Assembly (NCBI GenBank): GCA_902793375.1
Contig: CADBDE010000012.1
Span: 1-35,937, forward strand
DNA length: 35,937 bases
Origin: an uncultured Erysipelotrichaceae bacterium
Lineage (GTDB): Bacteria; Bacillota_I; Bacilli_A; RF39; UBA660
Direction of reading: 5' to 3'
The notes under the pieces were generated by a model. It made no database searches and was not told the DNA's origin. It worked only from the letters and a program-made list of their open reading frames with translations. The position numbers and the translations under genes were made by a program. Below are positions 5,892 to 21,617 of this stretch, piece after piece (position 1 is the first letter of the stretch; every line of letters starts with the position of its first letter).

Positions 5892-6273
5892 TTAATTATT
5901 TTTAGAAATATTTAACAATATTCCAATACTTATCATACTTATTAGTAAACTACTTCCTCCATATGATAGAAAAGGTAACGTTACACCCGTTACTGGAATA
6001 AGACCAATAACAACAGATAAATTCAATATTGCTTGAATAATTATTTGAAATATTAAACCAAATGACAAATATTTTGCAAAATCATCTTTTATGTTAATTG
6101 CAATTTTAAAGCCATAATATAATAAAAGTGCAAACAAAGAAACAACAATTATTACTCCCATTACTCCAAATTCTTCACTAATAATTGAAAAAATAAAATC
6201 TGTTTGTGGTTCTGGTAGATAAAATTGTTTTTGTCTTGATTTTAAAAATCCCATCCCCATAAGTCCACCTGGA
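5892..6273 (-). CDS. ftsW: ftsW/spoVE lipid-II polymerase, 3' half (interrupted)
   Basis: This is the C-terminal third (124 residues) of a SEDS-family glycosyltransferase: GLMGMGFLKSRQKQF, LPEPQTDFIFSIISEEFG, then three membrane segments and TGVTLPFLSYGGSSLL. The gene is cut at the GPGG codons by element 1; its 5' part is at 9657-10368. Joining 10368-9657 to 6265-5892 gives 1,086 bases, an in-frame 361-residue protein of normal FtsW/SpoVE length with no lost or added codon. While the element is present, an alternative ATG at 6320 inside it opens this frame, but such a product would lack most membrane segments and the upstream catalytic region. FtsW works with a class B PBP to polymerise septal peptidoglycan; the split PBP lies in the same cluster. 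Confidence 0.93.
6266..6273. repeat. Element 1 attachment core, left copy
   Basis: CACCTGGA shared with 9657-9664. In the rebuilt site the flanks form the dyad ATAAGTCC-ACCT-GGACCTAT, with one mismatch in the arms. Its centre coincides with that of the attP arms (6285-6293 and 9635-9643), placing the crossover at the CC/GG dinucleotide. Confidence 0.88.
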
Positions 6274-6279
6274 TTTAGT

Positions 6280-7521
6280 TTATAGCGATAAACAAGGATT
6301 TTTAAAATTAAAATAAACATCTATTGTTTTATCACTATGTACTTCTATTTTTTTTATTAATAGTAATAGTAATTTTCTATTAATCTCTACATTCAAATTA
6401 TAATGATTCATAAGTATTTTAATTTTATTTATTATTATTTTTTCTATTTTTTTATAATTATTTGAATGAGAACTACATAGTCTTTGTTTTGAATATTTTT
6501 TATAAGTATTACAAATTAAATAAACATTATTCTTATTTTTTTGAAATGACATTCTTTTTTTACATTCAAAACAAGTAATAAATCCAGTTAATAAATAATT
6601 ATTCTTATTATTTTTCTTAATTACATTCTTTTCTTTAAAGATTTTTTGAACTCTATCAAAATCTTCTTTATCAATTATTACATCGTGTGTATTGTTTACT
6701 ATTATCCATTCATCTCTATTATTGTTTTTTAATTTTCTTATTTTATAATTAATTCTACATCTTCTATTTTGAACTAAATTTCCAGTATATAGTTCATTTT
6801 TTAATATTGTTTTTATAGTTGTTGAACTCCAATATCCTTCTTTAGAATACTTAGAATTTTTTTTATTATTTCTAATTAGTGTTGGAGTTTTAACTTTATT
6901 ATTAAATAAATACTCTTTAATTTTATTTATTGAGTATCCACTTAAGAATAATGAATAAATTTTTCTAACTATTATTGCTTCTTCATAATTTACTACTAAA
7001 TGATTTTTATCATTAACATCTTTACTATATCCAAATGGTGTACATCCTCCAACCCATTTACCCATTTGTTGTTTTATTCTCAAAGCAGCTTTTATTTTTT
7101 TTGAATTATCTTTGGAAAACATATCATTTATTATTGCTTTAAATGGCATATATTCATTAATATTATTTATAGAATCATAATTATCAAGAATAGAAATAAA
7201 TCTTATATTTTTACTTGGAAAAAACATTTCTAAATAGTATCCAGTAATAATATAGTCTCTTCCAAATCTTGATAAATCTTTAACGATTATTAAATCTATT
7301 TTTTTATTATTTATATCATCAATTAATCTAAGAAAACTTGGTCTATTAAAATTAGTTCCAGTATAACCGTCATCTATATAATAATCATAAATTTTATAAT
7401 CATTTTTATTTGCATACTCAGTTAGTATATTTTTTTGATTTTCAACACTTTCACTATTTGTGTTATTTTTATTTTCATCTTCTTTAGATAATCTTATATA
7501 AAGAGCCGCATTATAATTCAT
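6280..7521 (-). CDS. Large serine recombinase of element 1
   Basis: A 413-residue site-specific recombinase. The N-terminal resolvase domain holds the nucleophile Ser13 in YIRLSKEDE, then DDGYTGTNFNRPSF and DLSRFGRDYI. The recombinase domain follows (about 160-270, GGCTPFGYSKD through GYWSSTTIKTILKNELYTGN). A zinc ribbon (CFECKKRM ... CNTYKKYSKQRLCSSH) and the typical IEVHSDKTIDVYF end come after it. It is the TnpX/TndX type of clostridial elements but on the short side. The start (ATG 7521) overlaps the stop of a 31-codon ORF, implying translational coupling. Its stop lies only 7 bp from the att core. It probably inserts and removes element 1 in ftsW. Confidence 0.95.
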   Translation of the reverse strand: MNYNAALYIRLSKEDENKNNTNSESVENQKNILTEYANKNDYKIYDYYIDDGYTGTNFNRPSFLRLIDDINNKKIDLIIVKDLSRFGRDYIITGYYLEMFFPSKNIRFISILDNYDSINNINEYMPFKAIINDMFSKDNSKKIKAALRIKQQMGKWVGGCTPFGYSKDVNDKNHLVVNYEEAIIVRKIYSLFLSGYSINKIKEYLFNNKVKTPTLIRNNKKNSKYSKEGYWSSTTIKTILKNELYTGNLVQNRRCRINYKIRKLKNNNRDEWIIVNNTHDVIIDKEDFDRVQKIFKEKNVIKKNNKNNYLLTGFITCFECKKRMSFQKNKNNVYLICNTYKKYSKQRLCSSHSNNYKKIEKIIINKIKILMNHYNLNVEINRKLLLLLIKKIEVHSDKTIDVYFNFKNPCLSL

Positions 7522-7606
7522 ATACTAAATCCTTATTATTAATATTCTTTATTAACTTATCTAAAGAATCTTTTCCTTCATAATAAAAATTAATAGATTT
7601 ATTCAT
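7511..7606 (-). CDS. 31-residue ORF coupled to the element 1 recombinase
   Basis: A short ORF starting at the ATG at 7606 behind TGGAGGTAT and ending inside the recombinase start region (the stop overlaps ATGAATTATAA). Sequence begins MNKSINFYYEGKD and ends LIKNINNKDLVYEL. No family recognised. The strong ribosome site and overlap suggest it is translated and couples translation to the recombinase; a helper or directionality role is only a guess. A longer upstream reading frame exists but has no ribosome site. Confidence 0.55.
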   Translation of the reverse strand: MNKSINFYYEGKDSLDKLIKNINNKDLVYEL

Positions 7607-7654
7607 AGATACCTCCATGAATAATCTATTAATTAATTTAAAAAAATATACAAA

Positions 7655-7680
7655 AAAAGTGTAATAATAATTACACTTTT
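7655..7680 (-). terminator. Terminator after the element 1 secreted-protein gene
   Basis: A perfect 11-bp stem (AAAAGTGTAAT / ATTACACTTTT) with a 4-nt loop lies just past the stop at 7686. It separates the cargo gene from the recombinase unit. Confidence 0.8.
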
Positions 7681-7685
7681 TTATC

Positions 7686-8489
7686 CTACCAAGTACCAGA
7701 CCAGTATACTTCCGCTTCATTAATTGTATCAAACATATTATATACTGAACTATCATGTACAATTCCAAGAGTTGCGTTAACATCATGATTTAATGCTTGA
7801 CTCAAAGTTAAAGATGAATCAATACCATGAGTATAATCACCAGCAGCAACTTGGCTTGTTACTGTACTATATGGATTTACTTTTTGAATATCATAATAAT
7901 AAGTTACTGTTAATGAACTTAAATTTGGAAGTGGTAACATAAATGTTGCGCTTTCTCCTTTTGTAAATGATTGTGATGTATAATAGAATAAATTAAAATG
8001 CGTACCAGAAGTTGTATAATATTCCAAATTAAAATATGGAGAACCACTAATAGTAACATCACTATAATGTCCAATTCCAATTACATCATATGATCTAACT
8101 GCAGGAAAGTTTAACCAATTTAATTGATTCTTATAACGATACGTATTGTTAACATAAGTTAAATAAGTAGTCATCATTTTATAAGTTGTTTCAACTGTTG
8201 TTGAATCTCTAGTAACTAATGTTTTACTTATATCAGTATCTGCATTTTCATATTCTTCTTTTGTAAGTTCATATGAATCACTACTAATCAAATCAGCTTT
8301 TACTATATTACCATATGAGTCTTTTTCAACATTTTCATAAACATTTACCGTTTTTAAATACTTAGTTGATTCATTTAATATAATTTCTTTTTCTTCATCA
8401 ACATTTTTAGTATTATTATCAGCATTAACATATGTTGGAATAATAACCAATATAGTAATAAAAAGTAATACCATTATTTTCTTTTTCAT
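7686..8489 (-). CDS. Secreted protein of unknown function, element 1 cargo
   Basis: A 267-residue protein not matched to a known family. A clear Sec signal peptide (MKKKIMVLLFITILVIIPTY, then VNADNN) with a likely AxA-like cleavage near residue 23 is followed by a charged region and a Tyr/Thr/Ser-rich, probably beta-rich domain (about 95-267) without cysteines in the mature part. AGGAGGAACT precedes the ATG. It is read alone between the XRE regulator and the recombinase and has its own terminator. Similar secreted proteins are often lantibiotic-like or surface proteins, but nothing here identifies the activity. Confidence 0.8.
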   Translation of the reverse strand: MKKKIMVLLFITILVIIPTYVNADNNTKNVDEEKEIILNESTKYLKTVNVYENVEKDSYGNIVKADLISSDSYELTKEEYENADTDISKTLVTRDSTTVETTYKMMTTYLTYVNNTYRYKNQLNWLNFPAVRSYDVIGIGHYSDVTISGSPYFNLEYYTTSGTHFNLFYYTSQSFTKGESATFMLPLPNLSSLTVTYYYDIQKVNPYSTVTSQVAAGDYTHGIDSSLTLSQALNHDVNATLGIVHDSSVYNMFDTINEAEVYWSGTW

Positions 8490-8579
8490 AAGTTCCTCCT
8501 TTCAAGCAAAATATACAATAAAAAAAAGAAAAAGTATATTGCTTAAAAAGAGAGTATTGAAAATATCAAAATAATAGAA

Positions 8580-9275
8580 TTAATAATTTATATTTAATGC
8601 CATTCTATTATTATTTTCACCCATAAATATTATCATTAGTTGTAAATTTTCCTTATCTATCTTTTTTTTATAATCAATACTTATTGTATAATTATCCAAA
8701 ATTTCTAATATTGATTTATTTGTTTCAATATTAATTGATTCATTATATATTATTTCGTCTTTATTTTTTAATATTAATCTAATAGATTTTATATTATTAT
8801 TAACACTATTATCTACCCCTATTTCACTTATTACTATTTTTGATTCTTTATTATTACTTATAATAAATCCTTTAGAAGATATACTATCATTAGAGTATAA
8901 ACTAGTTATTTTCCAACTATAATAATCTTCAATAAGAAATACAAAAAATACACTTAATAAGAATAATAAAAAGAAAATAGTAAAATATTTAATAAGTTTC
9001 CTTTTAGTCATTTTTGAATAAATATCTATTGCTTCAACCGTGTCTACTTTATTAACTTCTTCACCTATTAGTAATTCTTCTACAGAAACATCTAAGGTTT
9101 TTGCAAGTGAATTTAACAATGTTATATCTGGTGCAACTACACCTTTTTCCCATTTACTTACTGTTTTATCACTAACATCTAAGATATCTCCAAGAGTCTT
9201 TTGAGTATATCCTTTACTCTTTCTTAAATCAGAAATATGTTTTCCCATCTTTATCATGCTAGATCTATCATTCAT
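8580..9275 (-). CDS. Membrane-anchored XRE-family regulator, element 1
   Basis: About 231 residues from the ATG at 9275, which has GGTGAAAAT upstream; an upstream TTG at 9308 lacks a good site. The N-terminal helix-turn-helix is a classic XRE domain: ISDLRKSKGYTQKTLGDIL, VSDKTVSKWEKGVVAPDI, LLNSLAKTLDVSVEELL. One transmembrane helix (LIKYFTIFFLLFLLSVFFVFLI) follows, and about 130 residues would lie outside the cell. That layout fits a one-component sensor that binds DNA inside and senses a signal outside. It neighbours a secreted-protein gene and lies upstream of the recombinase gene, so it may govern cargo or excision; this is inference. Confidence 0.85.
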   Translation of the reverse strand: MNDRSSMIKMGKHISDLRKSKGYTQKTLGDILDVSDKTVSKWEKGVVAPDITLLNSLAKTLDVSVEELLIGEEVNKVDTVEAIDIYSKMTKRKLIKYFTIFFLLFLLSVFFVFLIEDYYSWKITSLYSNDSISSKGFIISNNKESKIVISEIGVDNSVNNNIKSIRLILKNKDEIIYNESINIETNKSILEILDNYTISIDYKKKIDKENLQLMIIFMGENNNRMALNINY

Positions 9276-9364
9276 ATTTTCACCAACTTCATAACTAATA
9301 ATATACAATAATTATCATTAATAGTTAGATTAGTATTCTTATAGTAAACAAAAAAATGTTGTAT

Positions 9365-9529
9365 CTAATCAACATTTTTCTTTTTACAATTTAACCTATC
9401 AATAATATATTCTGTTCTTATATATTGTTTAGGAATTTTATCAATATAAGATACATGTTTTTCCTTAATCTGAGATAATACTAAAAAGCTATTCCTAGCT
9501 TTATTATCTTCATAACTATCTTTTCTCAT
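9365..9529 (-). CDS. 54-residue ORF at the attR end of element 1
   Basis: Starts at ATG 9529 behind AAGGAGACTAAA and ends at a TAG at 9365. A small, charged protein (11 Lys, 5 Arg) beginning MRKDSYEDNKARNSFLV and ending in a Lys-rich tail. No family recognised. It is the first gene inside the element. Small basic proteins at this position are often excisionases or regulators, but no direct motif supports this. Confidence 0.55.
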   Translation of the reverse strand: MRKDSYEDNKARNSFLVLSQIKEKHVSYIDKIPKQYIRTEYIIDRLNCKKKNVD

Positions 9530-9543
9530 TTTAGTCTCCTTTC

Positions 9544-9555
9544 TTGTTATAACAA
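9544..9555. promoter_or_regulatory. Perfect 12-bp palindrome, candidate operator
   Basis: TTGTTATAACAA is a perfect inverted repeat just upstream of the ribosome site of the 54-codon ORF. It is a plausible binding site for the XRE regulator of the same element; no second copy was noticed. Confidence 0.4.
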
Positions 9556-9656
9556 CTATATGATAATAACAAATAATAAATATTTTTTTAGTATCTAAAA
9601 TTGCGAATTATGTATCTTATAAAGCGACTTTACAGTTTATCGCATCATACTTTACT

Positions 9657-9664
9657 CACCTGGA
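9657..9664. repeat. Element 1 attachment core, right copy
   Basis: Second copy of CACCTGGA, at the last intact codons of the ftsW 5' half. The interrupted frame reads GPG, then Glu and a TAG stop inside the element. Confidence 0.88.
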
Positions 9665-10368
9665 CCTATTGCATATAAAGATTGAATTATTTGAAACCCA
9701 GTCCCTAAAGGATCACTCCATGGATTTAAAAAAGAAGTAATTCTATTTACTCTATATGGTGCTATTAGAATTAATCCAATTATTCCAAAAATACCCAACA
9801 AAAAAAGAGAAATAAAAAACTTAATACTAACTCCTGCAATAAAAAGAAGAGAAATAACACTTACTATAATTATCATTCCAGTTCCAAAATCTGGTTGTAA
9901 CATAATAAGTCCAAAAACTAAAAATAAAACTAATAATATGGGAATAACACCTTTTTTTATATCTTTTATATATTTATTTGAATTGCATAAATAATTACTA
10001 GTTAAAATAATTAAGCTTATTTTTGAAAATTCACTTGGTTGTATTCCAAAAGATCCAATTCCAAACCAACTTCTACTTCCGTTTCTTATACTTCCTATAC
10101 CAGGAATCAAAACTAGAATAAGAAGAACTATACTTATTATAAATATAATTTTTGAGTATTTTTTATATAGTCTATAATCAATTTTACTAATTATAAAAAT
10201 TAAAAATAAACCAATTAAAAAAAAGAGAAATTGATGTTTTACATATTTAAATGAATCATTATACTTAAAAGAAGCCCAAATACTAGATGAAGAATAAATC
10301 ATTATAATTCCAAAAACAATCAGTATTAAAGATATTACAAGCAAATAATATCCATTTTTTTTATTCAT
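9657..10368 (-). CDS. ftsW: ftsW/spoVE lipid-II polymerase, 5' half (interrupted)
   Basis: The first 237 codons of the SEDS glycosyltransferase, starting at ATG 10368 behind AGGTGATTTA. It encodes hydrophobic segments starting YYLLVISLILIVFG, then GSRSWFGIGSFGIQPSEFSK and LMLQPDFGTGMI-type SEDS signatures, and ends SLYAIGPG at the att core. In the present state the frame continues one codon (Glu) into the element and stops at 9652. The rest is at 5892-6273. A weak hairpin lies between it and mraY. FtsW polymerises lipid II with its partner PBP; SpoVE is the sporulation paralogue, and the two cannot be told apart here. Confidence 0.93.
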
Positions 10369-10406
10369 TAAATCACCTAGTATATTTTATATTTAGATAA
10401 TAAAAA

Positions 10407-10426
10407 AAAGAACTAAAAAGTTCTTT
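10407..10426 (-). terminator. Hairpin between mraY and ftsW
   Basis: An 8-bp stem (AAAGAACT / AGTTCTTT) with a 4-nt loop overlaps the mraY stop codon and is followed on the minus strand by seven Ts. It would end or attenuate transcription before ftsW. Confidence 0.6.
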
Positions 10427-11523: not shown

Positions 11524-12390
11524 TTATCCTAAAAGAACTCGTATTTTACTTGTAATATCTATTTTTTCTTTTGGAGATGGTGATTGTTCTATTATATAAT
11601 CTCCATTTCCAGAAACTTCAAGTTCGACTGGATATATTAATTTTGTAGCTTCACTTACTTTTAATCCAATTAAATTAGGGACTTCATAATATTTTATATC
11701 ATTCCATATATATTTTTCTTCTATTCCACCTTCTTGTTTAGGAATAGATAATGCATCAATTATATCAAGAAGTATTCTTCTAGCAATTGGAGCAGTTGTA
11801 TAACTTGATAAAAGTGCTGTATTTTTTGGATTATCAATTGCAAGATATAATACAGCTTTTGGATCATTAGACGGAACTACAGCCATAAAGCTCATAATAT
11901 AGTTATTAACTAAATATTTTCCATCTTCTACCTTTTGAGCTGTTCCTGTTTTTCCTCCAACACGATAATCTTTAATAAATGCATATCTTCCTCCACCAAG
12001 GGCTACTACACTTTCAAGAGCATATTTCATAATATCACTTGTTTCTTTTGTAATTGTCTTTCTTATAAATGTTTTATCAAATTCTTTAATAACACTATTT
12101 GTAGTTGGTTCTTGAATACTTTTTACAATATATGGTTTATATAGATTACCTCCATTAACTACTGCACTAACTGCTCTAACTTGTTGAATTGGAGTTACAC
12201 TTACACCTTGCCCAAAAGCAGTTGTAGCAAGTTCCAAATCTTTTACTTTATCAAGTGAAAAAAGTATTCCATTACTTTCCCCATTTAAATCAATTCCTGT
12301 TTTTTCTCCAAAGCCAAACAAATCAATATAGTTAAATAGCCTTTCTTTTCCTAAAAGCATACCAAGTTTTACAAACCCTGGATTACAGGA
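11524..12390 (-). CDS. pbpB: PASTA-domain class B PBP (PBP2/SpoVD type), 3' half (interrupted)
   Basis: The C-terminal half of a septal or cortex transpeptidase. Joined to 20570-21617 it forms a 634-residue protein. This part carries the KTG motif in VGGKTGTAQK (rebuilt residues about 493-495) and ends in one PASTA domain, starting YYEVPNLIGLKVSEATKLI (about 582-634). PASTA domains occur in Bacillus SpoVD and streptococcal PBP2x and bind peptidoglycan or stabilise the enzyme. Restored codons across the junction read QNSCNPGFVKLGMLLG. An ATG at 12360 could start a fragment, but it would lack the SxxK serine and membrane anchor and so could not be a working transpeptidase. Confidence 0.94.
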   Translation of the reverse strand, partial: SCNPGFVKLGMLLGKERLFNYIDLFGFGEKTGIDLNGESNGILFSLDKVKDLELATTAFGQGVSVTPIQQVRAVSAVVNGGNLYKPYIVKSIQEPTTNSVIKEFDKTFIRKTITKETSDIMKYALESVVALGGGRYAFIKDYRVGGKTGTAQKVEDGKYLVNNYIMSFMAVVPSNDPKAVLYLAIDNPKNTALLSSYTTAPIARRILLDIIDALSIPKQEGGIEEKYIWNDIKYYEVPNLIGLKVSEATKLIYPVELEVSGNGDYIIEQSPSPKEKIDITSKIRVLLG

Positions 12391-13958
12391 ATTTTATCTA
12401 GAGATACTTTATTATTTATATCAATAATCATATCATCATCTTCATAATTAAATACAATCCTTAATCTAATATTATTTCTATTATTATTAATCTTACTTAC
12501 TATTATTTTATTTACAAAAATATTAAAATAATCTTTAATATTATTTTCAACTATAAGTAATCTTTTTATTTCTTTATCTATTTTATTTAGATTAATACAA
12601 TTATTTATTTTATTATTACTAATTATTTCTAATTCTTTTTTTATTTTATTATTCTTTTCTTTATATTCACTTTCGTTAATTATTTTATTAAGTAATAAAT
12701 CAAGTAATTTTTCTTTAATAGTATCAAGTTGTTTTATTTTTTCTTCTAAATTATTAGACATCAATTCAACTTTATTAATAATTACTTTATAATCATTGAT
12801 AATCTCTTCTTTTAAGTTCTTATATTTTTTAATTTTATTTTTAATAATTTTATTAAATATAACATTTAAATCTTTTTCAAATAATCTAGGAGTTATACAT
12901 CCTTTTAGTCCATGACGCAAATAATTATTACATTGCCAAACTGGATTATTCTTCCTTTTTCCACTAGCAGATCTAATAAAAGGAATATTATGTTCATAAC
13001 ATATTATTTTTGAAGTATACATTCTATTTTCAAATATTGATTTATTTTTCTTACTATTTTTTTCTAAAACTTCATTTGCTTTTTTCCATAGTTTTTCAGA
13101 AACAATTGCTGGAATAAAACCTTTATTATCTTTATATATAATCCATTCTTTTTTATCTTTATATATTCTTTTATGTGTTTTATAATCTTCTACTTCACTT
13201 AAGTTTGCTGTATAAAAACCTTTATACCTTGGATTCTTAATCATTTTTTTTAAAGAAGTATCAGAAAATACTTTTCCTTTTCTTGTAAAAATATTTCTCT
13301 TTGCTAATACTTCTCCAATTCTTTTTAAGCCATAATTTTCACTTGAATACATTTTAAAAATCATTTTAACTACTTTTGCTTCATCTTCAATAATTGTAAG
13401 CTTTGAATTATGTTTTAGATAGCCATATAATCCTCCACCACCTACTTTTCCATCTTTAATACTTCTTTTAATTCCAAATTTAACTCTTTCTGATAGTTTT
13501 CTTACTTCATCTTGTGCCATTGATGCCATAAGAGTTAATCTAAATTCACTATCTTTATAAATAGTATTAATATTATCAGTAATAAAGAAAACAATTACTC
13601 CATAACTTAATAATAACTGTGTATACTTAATACTATCTATTGTATTTCTAGCAAATCTTGATACTTCTTTTGTAAGAATTAAATCTATTTTTCCATTTTT
13701 TGCATCTTCTATCATTTTTAAAAATTGTTCTCTTTTTCTTACTTCAGTACCACTTAGTCCCTCATCAACATAACTATTAACATGTTTCCATTTTTTTACT
13801 CCTTTTATAAAATCATTAAAATAATTTATTTGATTTTCTAAAGAATTAACTTGTTCATCTTTATCAGTTGATACTCTTCCATAATCAACTACTCTTAAAT
13901 TCATATCATATATTGTTTTTCCAAGTAATAAATCATTTCTTGCTTTAATAATATCCAT
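12369..13958 (-). CDS. Large serine recombinase of element 2
   Basis: About 529 residues from the ATG at 13958; a GTG at 13967 is an alternative. The resolvase domain has the nucleophile serine in DYGRVSTDKDEQ, then YVDEGLSGTEVRKREQF and LTKEVSRFARNTIDS. A recombinase domain (GGGGLYGYLK through LKKMIKNPRYKGFYTANL), a short zinc-ribbon-like region (CYEHNIPFIR ... CNNYLRHGLKGC) and a long coiled coil (about 380-480) follow. It is a different subfamily from the element 1 enzyme. Its reading frame runs through the att core and ends at a TAA supplied by the host PBP gene (ending IPVIQGL). In the excised circle the same frame would end differently (IPVILSFVKRY), so the C-terminus depends on integration. 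Confidence 0.95.
   Translation of the reverse strand: MDIIKARNDLLLGKTIYDMNLRVVDYGRVSTDKDEQVNSLENQINYFNDFIKGVKKWKHVNSYVDEGLSGTEVRKREQFLKMIEDAKNGKIDLILTKEVSRFARNTIDSIKYTQLLLSYGVIVFFITDNINTIYKDSEFRLTLMASMAQDEVRKLSERVKFGIKRSIKDGKVGGGGLYGYLKHNSKLTIIEDEAKVVKMIFKMYSSENYGLKRIGEVLAKRNIFTRKGKVFSDTSLKKMIKNPRYKGFYTANLSEVEDYKTHKRIYKDKKEWIIYKDNKGFIPAIVSEKLWKKANEVLEKNSKKNKSIFENRMYTSKIICYEHNIPFIRSASGKRKNNPVWQCNNYLRHGLKGCITPRLFEKDLNVIFNKIIKNKIKKYKNLKEEIINDYKVIINKVELMSNNLEEKIKQLDTIKEKLLDLLLNKIINESEYKEKNNKIKKELEIISNNKINNCINLNKIDKEIKRLLIVENNIKDYFNIFVNKIIVSKINNNRNNIRLRIVFNYEDDDMIIDINNKVSLDKIPVIQGL
12381..12390. repeat. Element 2 attachment core, left copy
   Basis: GATTACAGGA shared with 20570-20579. Read on the minus strand it holds TCC TGT AAT, the codons of the PBP SxN active-site motif. 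Confidence 0.9.
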
Positions 13959-13959
13959 T

Positions 13960-14085
13960 TTATTCACCTATTAATTTAGATAAGGTTTTTTCCATTTCAT
14001 TATATATTTCATAATCTATTATTTGATTATCAAATAAATACTTATTATAGTATTTTTTTAACATAATTATTTCTTTTTTATTCAT
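13960..14085 (-). CDS. 41-residue SHOCT-like ORF preceding the element 2 recombinase
   Basis: Starts at ATG 14085 behind AAGGTGATTTA and stops one base before the recombinase ATG, so it is almost certainly co-translated. The pattern MLKKYYNKYLFDNQIIDYE followed by IYNEMEKTLSKL resembles the short SHOCT helix-loop-helix proteins often found just upstream of serine recombinases in Firmicutes elements. The function of those is not established; a role in oligomerisation or control of the recombinase is possible. Confidence 0.6.
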   Translation of the reverse strand: MNKKEIIMLKKYYNKYLFDNQIIDYEIYNEMEKTLSKLIGE

Positions 14086-14123
14086 TAAATCACCTTATAT
14101 AAGTTATTATTAAAGTAAAAAAA

Positions 14124-14142
14124 ATAGAACTTATAGTTCTAT
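14124..14142 (-). terminator. Terminator after the BspA-type gene
   Basis: A perfect 8-bp stem (ATAGAACT / AGTTCTAT) with a 3-nt loop, followed on the minus strand by seven Ts. It isolates the cargo operon from the recombinase unit. Confidence 0.8.
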
Positions 14143-14152
14143 CTTTTATTTA

Positions 14153-17100
14153 TTAACTTTTTAAAGTAAATGTTAATGCTGTTGGTTTTCCACTTGATGA
14201 ATTATATTTATTAACATCTGTTTGGTTCTTACCATATGCTGTAGTAACTGAAGTACATCCAAAGAACATTTGTGTTGTACTTGAAACTCTACTTGCATTA
14301 AAGTAACTTAAATCTAATGATGTTAGTTTATTACAATTGTAGAACATATAACTCATATTAGTTACATTGTTTGTATTAAATGAACTAAAACTCAAATTAG
14401 TTAAATTACTACAATTATAGAACATATAAGCCATATTAGTTACATTACTTGTATTAAAGCTACTTAAATCTACACTTTGTAAACTCATACAATTATTAAA
14501 TAAGTATGACATGTTTGTTACTCTTGAAGTATTCCATGTATTAAGTCCAATAATATTTTTTAATCCTGTTGCTCCAGAGAACAAACTACCAATTTCTCTT
14601 GTATTTGATAAATTCCATCCAGTTACATCTATAGTTTCTAGAGAAGATCCTACTCCCCAATTGCTTAACCAACTTGAGAATGTTGAAGGAAGTGTCCAGT
14701 TTTTTACAGATAATGTTTTTAATGAAGAAGTTCCATTTATTACACTAGACATATAACTACTCATAGATGACATAATTGATAGATTCCATCCATCTAATAC
14801 TAGATTTGTTAATCCACTACATCCATAGAACATATAAGAATAATAATATACTTTATTTGTATTAAAATGACTTAAATTTAAACTTGCCAAACTTCTACAA
14901 TTGTAGAACATTCTTTCAAAAGATGTTGCATTTGCTGTATTAAAATTGCTAATATTTAGATTTGATAAATTTGTACAGTTATAAAACATATATGCAAAGC
15001 TTGTTACTTTAGCTGTATTGAAATTACTTAAATTCAAACTTGTTAATCCACTACATCCATAAAACATATATGATATTGAAGTTACATTAGCTGTATTAAA
15101 ATTACTTAAATTCAAACTTGTTAATCCACTACATCCATAAAACATCGAAGACATATTTGTTGCTTTAGATGTATCAAAATTACTTAAATTTAGATTTGTA
15201 AGTGAACTACAATTATAAAACATTGAGTCAAATCCTGTTACTTTACTTGTGTTAAAACTACTTATATTTAAATTTGCTAATTTACTACAACCACTAAACA
15301 TTGAAGACATATATGTAACATTAGTTGTTACAAAATTGCTCAAATCTAAGCTTGTTAGATTACTACATCCATAAAACATTCCAGACATACTAGTTACTTT
15401 ACTTGTATCAAAGTTACTTAAATTTATTGAAGTTAATCCTGACATATAACCAAACATATATGACATGCTTGTTAGATTTGTAGTTACAAAATTACTTATA
15501 TTTAAATTATTTAGTTTTGTACAATAATGGAACATATATGACATATTTGTTACTCTACTTGTATCAAATCCTGATAGATTTAAATTAGTTAGATTAGTAC
15601 AATTTGCAAACATATTTGACATATTTGTTACTTTACTTGTGTTAAAACTTGATAAATCAAGAGAAGTTAACCCAGAGCATCCATAGAACATATAACTCAT
15701 GTCAGTAATATTTGTGGTATTAATTTGAGCTAAATTAATATTTGTTAATTTACTACAATTGTAAAATAAATTTGATAAACTAGTTAATCTACTAAAATCT
15801 AATCCACCAAAATCTATTGTAGTAAGATTTGAACATCCCGAGAATAATCCATTAATAGATGTTACTTTACTTGTATTTAAATCACTTAAATCTACATTTT
15901 TTAAATTAGTATCATTAGAGAACAAATATGAAATATTTGTAACATTACTTGTATTAAGACTTGTCAAATCAATTGATTCAAAAGTATTACCTCCAAACAT
16001 TCCACTCATATTTGTTACTTTACTTGTATCAAGATTAGCAAAATTCAAACTCATATTACGACAACCATATAACATATATGACATATTTGTTACCTTGCTT
16101 GTATTAAAATCTGAATAATTAATAGGTAATTTATAACAATTATAGAACATATATGACATGTTTGTAACATTACTTGTATCAAAATTTGAAAAATCAACAT
16201 TTATAAGTTCATTACAATTATAGAACAAATAAGACATATCTGTTACTCTTGATGTATCCCATGTATCAAGTCCTACAATATTTTTTAACAAGTTAGCGCC
16301 ATAGAATGTTTGATATAAACTTGTTACTGTACTTAAATCCCAACCAGTTACATCTAAAGTTTCAACATAGTATAAATAAATGTTACTTCCATAAAATGGT
16401 CTTGAACCAAATGCCCAGTTTTTCATAGAAATTGTTTTTAAATTATTAGTGTAATAAAACATAGAACTATAATTGCTTAATTTTGACATATCCCAATTAT
16501 CTAAATTAAGAGATGTTAATCCTCTACAATAATAGAACATATAATTTGTATTTGTTAATCTAGAAGTATCCCATGTATCAAGTCCTATAATTTCCTTTAG
16601 ACCTGATCCATTATAGAATAAATAAGCTAAGCTAGTATTACCACTTAAATCCCAGTCAGAAACATCAATTGTTTCAACATTTGTTGGAATACTAAAATTA
16701 GATATTAAATATGTAAACTCATTTGGAATTTTCCAATCTTTAGCAGATATTGATTTTAAACTTGAAGCTCCACTAAAAAAACCATTTGCAAAAGTTGTAG
16801 ATGGAAGTCTTTTAAAATTCCAATTATCTAATACTACACTTCTAAGTGAAGTACATCCCTGAAAAACATTTTTCATATTTGATACATTAGATGTATCAAA
16901 ATCACTTAAATCAATTGTTTCTAAAGAACTACATCCACTAAATAACGAACTAATATCTCTAACATTAACTGTATTCCACGTATCAAATCCAACTACATCT
17001 TTTAGTTTTTTTGCATCTGCAAATAACCCTTCTAATTTTTTAGTTTCTGATAAGTTAACATCAGTTACATCTATTGTTTCAATTGATTGACTCTGGAAAA

Positions 17101-18178
17101 ATGAGAATGGTACTTCATTTCCAAAAGTAGCACTTCTTATTGATACTGTTTTTAAACTTGGAGTATTTACAAATACATTTTTACCATTTTGACCAATTTT
17201 TGAAAAATTAAATTCATCTAATTTAATTGTTCTAAGTGAAGAAGCACCATTAAACATTCCATCAATGTTCATAAGTCTTCCTGTAGCAAGTTTTGATAAA
17301 TTTACTTCAGTTACTCCAGTTGCATTTAAAAACATATTTGACATATTTTCAACACTAATTGTGTCAAAACTACTAAAATCTATACTTGTTGCTTTACTAT
17401 TAGCAAACATATTACGCATTGATACAATTGGTTTTTGATTTATTGTTGAACATAAACCTGATTCAACTGGATCTGTTGAGTTTTTATCTGTTAATACAAC
17501 TCCCCAACCATCAGCATTTACATCAACCCAATTAGTACCATCAAATTCTTGTTTATATCTATAAGTATACTGTCCATCAATATATTCTGCACCAACAGTT
17601 AATTCCCCATCAAACGAACAAGTATTTAATTCAAAATATTCTCCATTTGGAAGAATTCTTCCTTCTCTTGTAGTTTCACAATCTTCCGTATATCTAAATA
17701 CTTTTTTTCTTCCGTCAACTACTGCAGTTACTATGATATCGTCTTTTTCAATATCTGATTCTAAATCATCCTCATCAAAATCTTCAACATTAATAGGATC
17801 TTTTACTCCTATACCTGCTTCATCACGACTCATCCAGTAATAGTCATAGCCTTTTCCATTTCCTTTAAAGTTTACAACTACATAAGCAGGATCAAATTCA
17901 CCATAAGGAGATTTAGCAACATCTCCATTTTCTACTCTTATACATGAACTAGGAACATAATATGTAGTTTCCTCATCATGAAATTTGTATTCTTCACTAT
18001 TAATCTTTGTTGTTACTCCATCAACAATTTGTTTTGCTGTATCAATATAAGCTGTTTTTCTAGAATCATTAATTAGTTTTGTTACGCTTGGAATAGCAAT
18101 AATAATTAAGATTCCAAGTATTATGATAACAGCTAATAGTTCAATTAATGTGAATGCTTTTTTATTCATCTTTCTCAT
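14153..18178 (-). CDS. Giant prepilin-anchored BspA-type leucine-rich repeat surface protein
   Basis: 1,341 residues. The N-terminus has the prepilin signal AFTLIELLAVIIILGILIII and the shared pseudopilin body (SPYGEFDPAY, YYWMSRDEAG; to about residue 160). A linker with a GTNWVDVNADGWGVV segment follows. From about residue 255 to 1310 it is a long tandem array of roughly 24-residue BspA/DUF285-type repeats, whose consensus reads like LTSLDLSSFNTSKVTNMSNM with FYGCS after it. These repeats form a solenoid and occur in adhesins and immunogenic surface proteins of gut and oral bacteria. Some units are longer and degenerate (NWDLS.., WKIP..). It is the main cargo of element 2, 11 bp after the glycine-rich gene. 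Adhesion is inferred from the family. Confidence 0.92.
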   Translation of the reverse strand: MRKMNKKAFTLIELLAVIIILGILIIIAIPSVTKLINDSRKTAYIDTAKQIVDGVTTKINSEEYKFHDEETTYYVPSSCIRVENGDVAKSPYGEFDPAYVVVNFKGNGKGYDYYWMSRDEAGIGVKDPINVEDFDEDDLESDIEKDDIIVTAVVDGRKKVFRYTEDCETTREGRILPNGEYFELNTCSFDGELTVGAEYIDGQYTYRYKQEFDGTNWVDVNADGWGVVLTDKNSTDPVESGLCSTINQKPIVSMRNMFANSKATSIDFSSFDTISVENMSNMFLNATGVTEVNLSKLATGRLMNIDGMFNGASSLRTIKLDEFNFSKIGQNGKNVFVNTPSLKTVSIRSATFGNEVPFSFFQSQSIETIDVTDVNLSETKKLEGLFADAKKLKDVVGFDTWNTVNVRDISSLFSGCSSLETIDLSDFDTSNVSNMKNVFQGCTSLRSVVLDNWNFKRLPSTTFANGFFSGASSLKSISAKDWKIPNEFTYLISNFSIPTNVETIDVSDWDLSGNTSLAYLFYNGSGLKEIIGLDTWDTSRLTNTNYMFYYCRGLTSLNLDNWDMSKLSNYSSMFYYTNNLKTISMKNWAFGSRPFYGSNIYLYYVETLDVTGWDLSTVTSLYQTFYGANLLKNIVGLDTWDTSRVTDMSYLFYNCNELINVDFSNFDTSNVTNMSYMFYNCYKLPINYSDFNTSKVTNMSYMLYGCRNMSLNFANLDTSKVTNMSGMFGGNTFESIDLTSLNTSNVTNISYLFSNDTNLKNVDLSDLNTSKVTSINGLFSGCSNLTTIDFGGLDFSRLTSLSNLFYNCSKLTNINLAQINTTNITDMSYMFYGCSGLTSLDLSSFNTSKVTNMSNMFANCTNLTNLNLSGFDTSRVTNMSYMFHYCTKLNNLNISNFVTTNLTSMSYMFGYMSGLTSINLSNFDTSKVTSMSGMFYGCSNLTSLDLSNFVTTNVTYMSSMFSGCSKLANLNISSFNTSKVTGFDSMFYNCSSLTNLNLSNFDTSKATNMSSMFYGCSGLTSLNLSNFNTANVTSISYMFYGCSGLTSLNLSNFNTAKVTSFAYMFYNCTNLSNLNISNFNTANATSFERMFYNCRSLASLNLSHFNTNKVYYYSYMFYGCSGLTNLVLDGWNLSIMSSMSSYMSSVINGTSSLKTLSVKNWTLPSTFSSWLSNWGVGSSLETIDVTGWNLSNTREIGSLFSGATGLKNIIGLNTWNTSRVTNMSYLFNNCMSLQSVDLSSFNTSNVTNMAYMFYNCSNLTNLSFSSFNTNNVTNMSYMFYNCNKLTSLDLSYFNASRVSSTTQMFFGCTSVTTAYGKNQTDVNKYNSSSGKPTALTFTLKS

Positions 18179-18189
18179 AATTATTACCC

Positions 18190-19590
18190 CTATTCATCTA
18201 TATGTGTTATTCTTATAAAACCATTTCCAGTATGACCAATTTCTATTCCACCATCAGGTGAATCAAATGGTTGATTTCCACCTATTGTTTCAGCATTTTG
18301 CAAAAAATAAGAACTATCTAATTGGCACTGTGAAGTACAGTATGATGCATTACTTGAGGTATAGATATAACCAGATCCGCCACCGCCACCTCTGTCGTCA
18401 TCTCCACCTCCATCAGGATAAGTTCCAGATCCACCATACCAGCCTCCGCCACCGGCTCCACCGTAGCCATTAGCATGATATACTCCATTTCCTCCAAAAC
18501 CAAATCCTGCATATATATTTGGTTTATAATCGTCTACATCAGTTGGTTGTGTTGATACGACATATGAAGAACCTCCACTATTTCCACTAGCAGTTCCTCC
18601 GTATCCACCAGATCCATAAGATTGAGTAACTGTTTCTCCAAAAGTTCCTCCACCAGAACCACCAGGCTTACCAGTTGCTCCATCAGATCCTCCACCACCT
18701 GCTACAATTACTCTAGCATATGGACTTGTACTATTTATTCTTATATCGGAAGCTCCACCACCACCATAGTATTTATTACGGCTACCTCCTCCATTAAATC
18801 CACCTTGACAAAGCGTTTGACCACATCCATTAGATCCATGGCCTGCTGCTCCACCAACGTAAATATATAATGTATCTCCATCTTTTAATTTAACTACACC
18901 ATGTGAATATCCACCTTTTCCACTATAATTTTGATTAGTTCTATATCCACCTTCTGCACCCCAAATTTCTAAATTATAACTACCTGCACAAGTAATCTTT
19001 AAAGATTGTACATTACCCGTATAATTAAACTCAAGAGGAAGTGCACTACATGCTCCTCTTTTTTCACCACCAGAACAATCAGCATTAAAAACATATGTAT
19101 AATCTCTTGTACCAACAGTTCTATCAGTTCTAATATCAGAAGCTTTTAAGCCACTAACAATATCACTTTCATCTAAATCATCATAACTAGTTGGTACTTT
19201 AACTCCAAATCCTTCAGTATCTCTACTTACCCAGTAATACTCAAATCCTTTACCATTTTCAGAATAATTAACTACTACATAAGCTGGATCAAAATCTCCA
19301 TAAGGAGAACTAGTTGAATTTTCACTTTTTATACATGTCGTTGGGATAAAATAAGACATGTTAGTATCATAAAATGATATTTTACCTTCATTTACTATAT
19401 TTCTAGCAGCAGCCATTATATTTTTTGCTGTTGCTACATAAGAGTCACTTCTTGAACTATTCAAATATTTTGATACTGCTGGAATAGCTATAATTAATAA
19501 AATACCAAGTATTATTATAGCAGCAAGTAGTTCAATAATAGTAAATCCCCTTTTTCTTTTTTTCTTTTTTTTATTAAGTAATTTAAACAT
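18190..19590 (-). CDS. Prepilin-anchored glycine-rich surface protein
   Basis: 466 residues. A very basic start (KKKKKRKR) precedes GFTIIELLAAIIILGILLII, the prepilin signal, and the same pseudopilin body as its neighbour (SPYGDFDPAY, YYWVSRDTEG). Residues about 195-466 form a glycine-rich domain (WGAEGGYRTNQNY, YIYVGGAAGHGS, ARVIVAGGGGSDGATG, GGGGWYGGSG, then YIYTSSNASYC) matching the Gly_rich family also found in the ALK/LTK ectodomain. Several cysteines could form disulfides. It lies in an operon with the BspA-type gene. GC is locally high because of glycine codons. Surface display is inferred from the anchor; the ligand is unknown. Confidence 0.88.
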   Translation of the reverse strand: MFKLLNKKKKKRKRGFTIIELLAAIIILGILLIIAIPAVSKYLNSSRSDSYVATAKNIMAAARNIVNEGKISFYDTNMSYFIPTTCIKSENSTSSPYGDFDPAYVVVNYSENGKGFEYYWVSRDTEGFGVKVPTSYDDLDESDIVSGLKASDIRTDRTVGTRDYTYVFNADCSGGEKRGACSALPLEFNYTGNVQSLKITCAGSYNLEIWGAEGGYRTNQNYSGKGGYSHGVVKLKDGDTLYIYVGGAAGHGSNGCGQTLCQGGFNGGGSRNKYYGGGGASDIRINSTSPYARVIVAGGGGSDGATGKPGGSGGGTFGETVTQSYGSGGYGGTASGNSGGSSYVVSTQPTDVDDYKPNIYAGFGFGGNGVYHANGYGGAGGGGWYGGSGTYPDGGGDDDRGGGGGSGYIYTSSNASYCTSQCQLDSSYFLQNAETIGGNQPFDSPDGGIEIGHTGNGFIRITHIDE

Positions 19591-20538: not shown

Positions 20539-20569
20539 TTATTAATTAGTATCTCTTTACAAAACTCAA

Positions 20570-20579
20570 GATTACAGGA
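20570..20579. repeat. Element 2 attachment core, right copy
   Basis: Second copy of GATTACAGGA, inside the SCN codons of the PBP 5' half. It sits within an inverted repeat, CAAAACTC (20560-20567) and GAGTTTTG (20578-20585). Confidence 0.9.
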
Positions 20580-21617
20580 GTTTTGTAATACTTGCAAAAA
20601 GGTTTGCATTCCATGACCTGATGGTTTCCAACATCCAATTCTTGTTCCACTTACTATAACATGACCTGAATCATAAAATGTATCATTAAACAAATCTACT
20701 ACTTTTTCATTAACCGCAGCAGAAGTAGTTATTATTTTAAAAGTACTTCCTGGTTCAAATGAAGCCCATATAGGAAGATTTCTATTGATTGTTTCAACAC
20801 TTGCTTTTTTATAATTATTTGAATCATATGTTGGTCTTGAACTCATTCCTAATATTTCTCCAGTATTAGGATCCATTACAATTGCAAGAGCCATATCAGG
20901 AGAAAACATTGATACAATATTATTAAGTTCTCTTTCAAGAGATTGTTGAATATTATAATCAATTGTTAAAGTAATATTCATACCCTGTTGTGGAGCAACA
21001 TAAATATCAGATAATTTTAAGCTATTTCCTTTAGCATCACTAAAATATTTAATAGCTCCATCTACACCTGTTAAATAATTATCATATTCTAACTCTATTC
21101 CAGATAGTCCTTGATTATCAATACCAACATACCCTAAAACATGAGATAACATTTCATTATTTGGATAGTATCTTTTTGATTCTTTTACTAAATATACTCC
21201 TTTATACTTTAATTTATCTATTTTATCTGCTATTTCAAATGGTAATTGTCTACCTTCTGGATGTACTCTTTCAATGGATGTTTCTTTATACACATGTTTA
21301 TCCATTTTATCTTTTGATATTCCAAGAATATTGGCAAGATTTGTTGACACGTCTTCCTTATTTTCAAGTTGAGATGGAATAAGAACTAAACTTGTTGTTG
21401 TAATATTATTTGCAAGAACAACTCCATTTCTATCAAGAATTAAGCCTCGATCTGCAGCAAGAGGAAGATTTCTACTCCACAAATCATTAGCTTTTTCATT
21501 TAACATTTTATAATCAAATAATTGAATATAAATCACTTTTAAAATTATTATTATTAAGAATAAAATAAGTATAAGAAACAATAATCTAATTTTTTCATCT
21601 ATTTTTTTTGTAAACAT
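20570..21617 (-). CDS. pbpB: PASTA-domain class B PBP (PBP2/SpoVD type), 5' half (interrupted)
   Basis: The first 349 codons of the transpeptidase, from ATG 21617 with GGTGATAT upstream. A membrane anchor (about 11-33) is followed by the PBP dimerisation region (LPLAADRGLILDRNGVVLA, GYVGIDNQGLSGIELEYDNY) and the start of the catalytic domain with Ser291 in the SxxK motif (PGSTFKIITT). The frame runs into the element after the SxN motif (QNSCN) and stops at 20535, adding LEFCKEILINN. It lacks KTG and PASTA, so the fragment should be inactive. The remainder is at 11524-12390. The partner is the FtsW/SpoVE polymerase, also split. Confidence 0.94.

Follow-up and report, generated by a model that had tools for sequence, protein, structure and literature searches.

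A large serine recombinase gene that appears to contain its own attP, and would be cut by its own reaction, in the family of an element splitting spoVD

Does the recombinase of a mobile element that splits a spoVD-type PBP gene exist in two forms, one marking the integrated and the other the free state of the element? The question arises in a 35,937-nt stretch of DNA from an uncultured Erysipelotrichaceae bacterium (the window), which makes up the complete contig C12 of a genome of 1.59 Mb in 31 contigs. On its minus strand, the gene order is spoVD-mraY-spoVE, and both outer genes are split, with element 1 and element 2 each carrying a serine recombinase (Table 1). Element 2, which is 8,189 bp long, interrupts the PBP gene at the codon of the SxN-motif Asn. 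Its recombinase contains the Pfam domains Resolvase (9.6e-29) and Recombinase (1.9e-20), both above the Pfam cut-offs, and a possible zinc ribbon domain, which scores 20.4 bits, below its cut-off of 25.3. In the window itself, the tail swap of this protein comprises a few residues and is ordinary. For the family behind element 2, the comparison of relatives shows what we read as an attP embedded in the gene of a serine recombinase, so that the gene would be cut by the reaction of its own product.

Table 1. Positions of the features discussed, in window coordinates.
Feature	Position	Strand	Remarks
Element 2 large serine recombinase gene, integrated reading	12369..13967	-	GTG start, 532 aa; host DNA supplies the QGL tail and the stop
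Host-coded end of the recombinase frame past the crossover	12369..12384	-	PBP gene out of frame
Element-coded, circle-only end of the recombinase frame	20549..20573	-	ILSFVKRY and stop
ORF overlapping the recombinase start, candidate accessory protein	13960..14085	-	41 aa; relatives at same place in most site-A elements
5' part of spoVD-type PBP gene	20572..21617	-	TIGR02214 positions 5-350, 358.5 bits
3' part of spoVD-type PBP gene	11524..12384	-	TIGR02214 positions 342-635, 333.4 bits
att core GATTACAGGA, recombinase end of element 2	12381..12390	none	Crossover placed at 12383-12384
att core GATTACAGGA, other end of element 2	20570..20579	none	Crossover placed at 20572-20573
attP inverted arm AGAGATACT	12400..12408	none	Within recombinase coding end
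attP inverted arm AGTATCTCT	20548..20556	none	Encodes KRY of circle tail
Element 1	6266-9664		3,391 bp; splits FtsW/SpoVE-type gene (5' part 9655-10350, 3' part 5892-6284)
Element 1 core CACCTGGA	6266-6273 and 9657-9664		Read by eye

Precise removal of element 2 restores the spoVD-type frame (TIGR02214), and a congener with an intact spoVD (G001) provides a natural empty site. The attP of the element is palindromic, with a 9-nt arm on either side of a central TT (AA on the coding strand), at a distance of 15 nt, and this equal spacing of both arms places the crossover at the positions given in Table 1. A palindromic attP and a central crossover dinucleotide are as expected of a large serine recombinase. 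The sequence-only reading had claimed that the recombinase frame crosses the att core, which is confirmed by the ORF and by the repeat GATTACAGGA. Its description of both C-termini held as well: the integrated protein terminates with ...DKIPVIQGL and a TAA (12371-12369) from the PBP gene, which is out of frame here, and joining the outer end by script reproduced the circle end IPVILSFVKRY (...DKIPVILSFVKRY followed by a stop; 536 aa compared to 532 aa in the integrated form), so that the differing residues are QGL and LSFVKRY, respectively. Since attP overlaps the 3' end of the recombinase gene, the residues past the crossover are host-coded when the element is integrated and element-coded in the circle. 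A tail of 3 or 7 codons is easily open by chance, and the window alone is, therefore, not beyond chance.

The wider recombinase tree (62 rows) has one clade per target site, with 30 rows for site A, 5 for site B, and 5 for site C; L148, for which the flank is missing, falls within the site-A clade. Four recombinases (L143, L144, L146, and L164) are 91-99% identical, while the spoVD 3' parts of their hosts share only 64-86%, which indicates recent movement between species. The hosts of the relatives are Candidatus Onthousia (Bacilli) and uncultured Bacilli or Tenericutes MAGs. For most relatives, an early att finder using the longest common substring yielded false cores, owing to their shortness. 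Cores were then located with a motif anchored at the Asn codon; from the early finder, only the result for the window and the L161 stop position were retained.

Whether homologues keep the frame across the core was read in 35 distinct recombinases, 30 from site A and 5 from site B. Of those from site A, 16 continue through the crossover and 14 end ahead of it, with L161 scored as stopping on the basis of the early finder and L158 containing internal stops. The crossing genes do so in frame 2 in 14 of 16 cases and in frame 1 in the window and L152. Furthermore, the frame runs through the crossover in all 5 recombinases of site B and ends ahead of it in all 5 of site C. The proposal of two forms marking the integrated and free states is, thus, true of the sequence and extends, in relatives, to a conserved C-terminal domain separated on integration (see below), but several points speak against a conserved switch in element 2 itself. 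Of the 30 site-A genes, 14 stop before the core, and so does L044, which uses the same site A and is the nearest relative of the element 2 recombinase by tree path. The element 1 recombinase stops (6280-6282) 6 bp before its core (to 6273), so its tail is unchanged by integration. The host-coded tails of the near-identical recombinases (91-99%) are unrelated, with different lengths and sequences, which makes the integrated tail itself look arbitrary. The C-terminal domain of the sister elements is apparently gone in the window, where the circle tail would be a stub of little or no effect. Much of this would also fit a neutral overlap, in which attP often abuts the 3' end of integrase genes and the tail following the coiled coil is dispensable, leaving a C-terminal change without function: nearly half of the site-A genes stop early, near-identical recombinases tolerate tails of different length, and the window has a short circle tail whose sequence is in part set by the att arm. 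As an account of the whole family, we nevertheless regard it as doubtful, owing to what is found at the other end of the elements.

In frame-2 elements, the far end is open in the recombinase frame over long stretches, which are start-less and span 217-311 codons in full-length cases (G058, 217; G206, 218; G066, 221; G004 and G045, 308 each; G061, 311), with 191 codons in G213. An ATG is absent from the stretch of G066 and first appears at codon 177 in G058, 112 in G061, 93 in G206, and 48 in G045. Shortened or broken extensions are found in L154 (32 codons), G029 (88), G207 (123), and G214 (149), while in G210 only 14 codons are in frame and the homologous stretch sits in another frame. Among elements for which both the recombinase frame and attR were read, an open stretch of at least 32 codons is present at attR in 11 of 12 frame-2 elements compared to 1 of 11 others, the exception being L151 with a remnant of 61 codons; attR ends without a recombinase reading (G050, G055, G115, and G116) and L161, whose crossover is not fixed, are excluded from this count. 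A Fisher test of frame 2 against the rest, computed by hand, gives about 1e-4 for rows that are related. The attR stretches encode homologous proteins with 36-55% identity, which begin at the crossover codon, and pN is below pS over the whole stretch in 12 of 13 pairs; in the pair L082/L144, dN exceeds dS. At site B, a 35-codon tail with the same stop is found in 3 of 4 readable attR ends, from three genomes. It is this conserved, start-less coding of up to 311 codons from the crossover, with its association with frame 2, and the site-B tail ending at the same codon in three genomes that a neutral overlap explains poorly. While the window is not beyond chance, the family is, given 14 of 16 crossing recombinases in the same frame and long conserved coding at the other end.

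The attR stretch could also be a separate gene, with a start of translation that is internal or not an ATG, or with translation coupled to the truncated spoVD frame; its continuity with the recombinase frame in the circle would then be incidental. The DUF5655-type stretches would allow for this, as translation of a separate gene might begin at their internal ATG, which is codon 48 in G045 and, following an SD-like stretch, codon 47 in G004. G004 also retains an open frame although its recombinase stops before the crossover. However, the 221 codons of G066 lack any ATG and G058 has none before codon 177, and residues are conserved from the first codon past the crossover, ahead of any ATG. Moreover, the family-I-type profile A1, which matches in 11 of 30 chosen genomes, with all 11 matches at attR immediately behind the ...NSC codons of spoVD, is found in 10 of the 14 genomes whose recombinase crosses in frame 2 compared to 1 of 16 others, G004 being among these 16 with a family II stretch missed by A1. 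We therefore consider a separate gene unlikely. Frame-2 crossing together with a start-less, in-frame stretch at attR rather indicates that the recombinase gene of relatives is longer and encloses attP, and integration would consequently amputate a C-terminal domain. For several elements (G058, G061, G066, G206, and others), the two ends are on different contigs, so we infer their pairing. A circle or attP junction was seen in none of the assemblies, and the long recombinase form in relatives is a predicted product of the circle only.

Pfam returned nothing significant for three family I extensions and, for one family II extension, DUF5655 at 5.8e-4, which is below its cut-off; a PDB sequence search with A1 gave no match at E-values up to 1. 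An AlphaFold model of the extension has a mean pLDDT of 66, and the best Foldseek matches to it, a YdhG-like structure (9t2w, E 2.8e-3) followed by the DUF1801 protein YdhG (2oc6, E 1.1e-2), provide a lead only towards a YdhG-like/DUF1801 fold. Scans of viral contigs with recombinase 2 and with A1 yielded no relative.

The switch of large serine recombinases between integration and excision is commonly ascribed to a small directionality factor that is a protein apart from the enzyme. We propose, with a probability of roughly 0.6, that attP lies in the 3' end of the recombinase gene, that integration detaches the C-terminal domain in relatives, and that the long and short forms act differently. 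According to this proposal, the long form would have been present early in the site-A family and lost repeatedly. Excision, which would be expected in the mother cell during sporulation, would rejoin spoVD and, in relatives, also regenerate the long recombinase gene. The long form may then be active in the free circle, for re-integration and transfer, and excision from the chromosome would fall to the truncated form together with a directionality factor, such that recombination itself would decide which protein form is made; the lost domain might thereby control direction. A gene with a 3' domain attached and detached by recombination would be a built-in record of the state of the DNA. More tentatively, the family may include a self-switching serine recombinase, whose circle form carries a C-terminal control domain that integration removes by shifting its coding sequence to the opposite element end, which would give each direction of recombination a separate enzyme form, in elements that occupy catalytic-motif codons of sporulation genes and rejoin these genes at spore formation.

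A candidate for a directionality factor is the 41-aa ORF overlapping the recombinase start, which may alternatively be a SHOCT-like protein. Similar small ORFs end beside the recombinase start at 34 of 35 loci, with a different family at site B. Sigma-E-like promoters, searched for with a regular expression, are not enriched ahead of the recombinase, with 1 and 0 of 35 compared to shuffled means of 3.1 and 2.2.

Integration also divides the tyrosine integrase gene of SSV1-type archaeal viruses; while the likeness lies in the splitting of an integrase gene, the catalytic part remains whole here and only the C-terminal domain is lost. The likeness to phage systems drawn by the sequence-only reading fits mycobacteriophage BPs in part: as described in the available portion of PMC4557955, attP lies inside a gene and integration shortens its product, but that product is a repressor whose circle form carries an ssrA-like degradation tag, whereas here it is the recombinase and, in relatives, a whole domain. 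A corresponding degradation switch, in which the circle tail destabilizes the recombinase and integration removes it, is very improbable despite the shared topology, since the lost part is domain-sized in relatives and none of the circle tails, with ends read by eye, is ssrA-like (KRY, LQV, QKR, DVL, FIEI, and the like). In favor of our preferred reading, that the long and short recombinase forms act differently, an artificial C-terminal fusion of an integrase and an RDF alters direction (PMC5737554); the recombinase proposed here, with a natural domain in the position of the added one, would be a natural counterpart of such fusions. A case of attP inside a serine integrase gene was not found in the literature searched, including PMC10083194, which is not proof of absence.

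By analogy, the split spoVD resembles known intervening elements of sporulation genes. Those in sigK (skin), spsM (SPbeta), spoVFB (vfbin), gerE (gin), and yabG (yin), covered in the available parts of PMC10747680 and PMC5595907, are, like element 2, recombinase-bearing elements inside a sporulation gene, and gin and yin share with it short direct repeats and the restoration of the gene by precise excision, which is predicted for element 2 (PMC5595907, PMC10747680). In contrast to these elements, the targets here are spoVD and spoVE, often with several sites, in one operon of uncultured gut Bacilli; attP lies within the recombinase gene; and the element is known from sequence, with developmental excision being a prediction. 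The main text of PMC10747680 and PMC5595907, as far as available, does not name spoVD or spoVE as targets, and a literature search on spoVD excision by a recombinase yielded, in the portions accessible, work on integrative elements.

A profile search with TIGR02214 (spoVD_pbp) across 117 genomes of the family found the gene above cut-off in 62, with 3 more being full length just below it. We sorted the other 52 into 27 with spoVD split at element sites, 7 that are ambiguous due to breaks at contig ends, and 18 without the gene. SpoIVA is present in 60 of the 65 genomes with intact spoVD (59 above cut-off), in 6 of 7 ambiguous genomes, in 5 of 18 without spoVD, and in 27 of 27 split genomes, which, thus, keep a hallmark of sporulation. 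The genome of the window also has SpoIVA, as well as other PBPs and two other FtsW/RodA genes, so the split spoVD/spoVE pair need not serve growth. In L147 and L149, a pair of close relatives that share the insertion, dN is 0.009 and dS 0.26 for the spoVD 3' part, which suggests, for this pair only, continued selection on spoVD while it is split. The median dN/dS of spoVD 3' parts is 0.30 in split genomes (373 pairs), slightly above the 0.23 of intact ones (347 pairs).

Break points in the spoVD profile lie near positions 297, 349, and 413, the first two at what we take to be the PBP motifs SxxK and SxN, respectively, so that spoVD is a hot spot of insertion at three places; in G060, G066, and G078, at least two breaks leave it in three or more pieces. 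Contigs end about 120 nt or less from the spoVD junction in G013, G028, G050, G055, G056, G091, G116, and G199, as if the assemblies branched there, possibly from mixed empty and filled sites. Insertions are not confined to spoVD. In G001, spoVE is split at the same place as by element 1, with a recombinase 61-62% identical to that of element 1, for whose relatives 30 of many loci were read. Moreover, 7 of the 117 genomes (G013, G031, G056, G062, G099, G103, and G200) have a spoIVA that is interrupted close to position 120 of the profile. Genes for D-Ala-D-Ala carboxypeptidases are split at SxxK or SxN codons in G006, G019, G035, G037, G070, G109, and G115, with short shared attR tails resembling the spoVD case; their crossover is not fixed, and they were left out of the counts. 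Insertions in spoVD, spoVE, spoIVA, and D-Ala-D-Ala carboxypeptidase genes point to uncultured gut Bacilli as a source of intervening elements of sporulation genes. A restriction of the targets to sporulation genes was rejected, as one recombinase clade adjoins an ABC-transporter substrate-binding gene (named by eye).

The cargo of element 2 (14153-19590, minus strand) encodes two pilin-like N-termini; 78-nt repeats follow one of them, and a glycine-rich domain of the ALK/LTK type follows the other. Finally, the 58 nt upstream of the spoVE gene (10357-10414) and those upstream of the recombinase operon (14074-14131) are 81% alike; the shared stretch comprises a putative terminator, spacer, and ribosome site and may reflect common control of spoVE and the recombinase operon.
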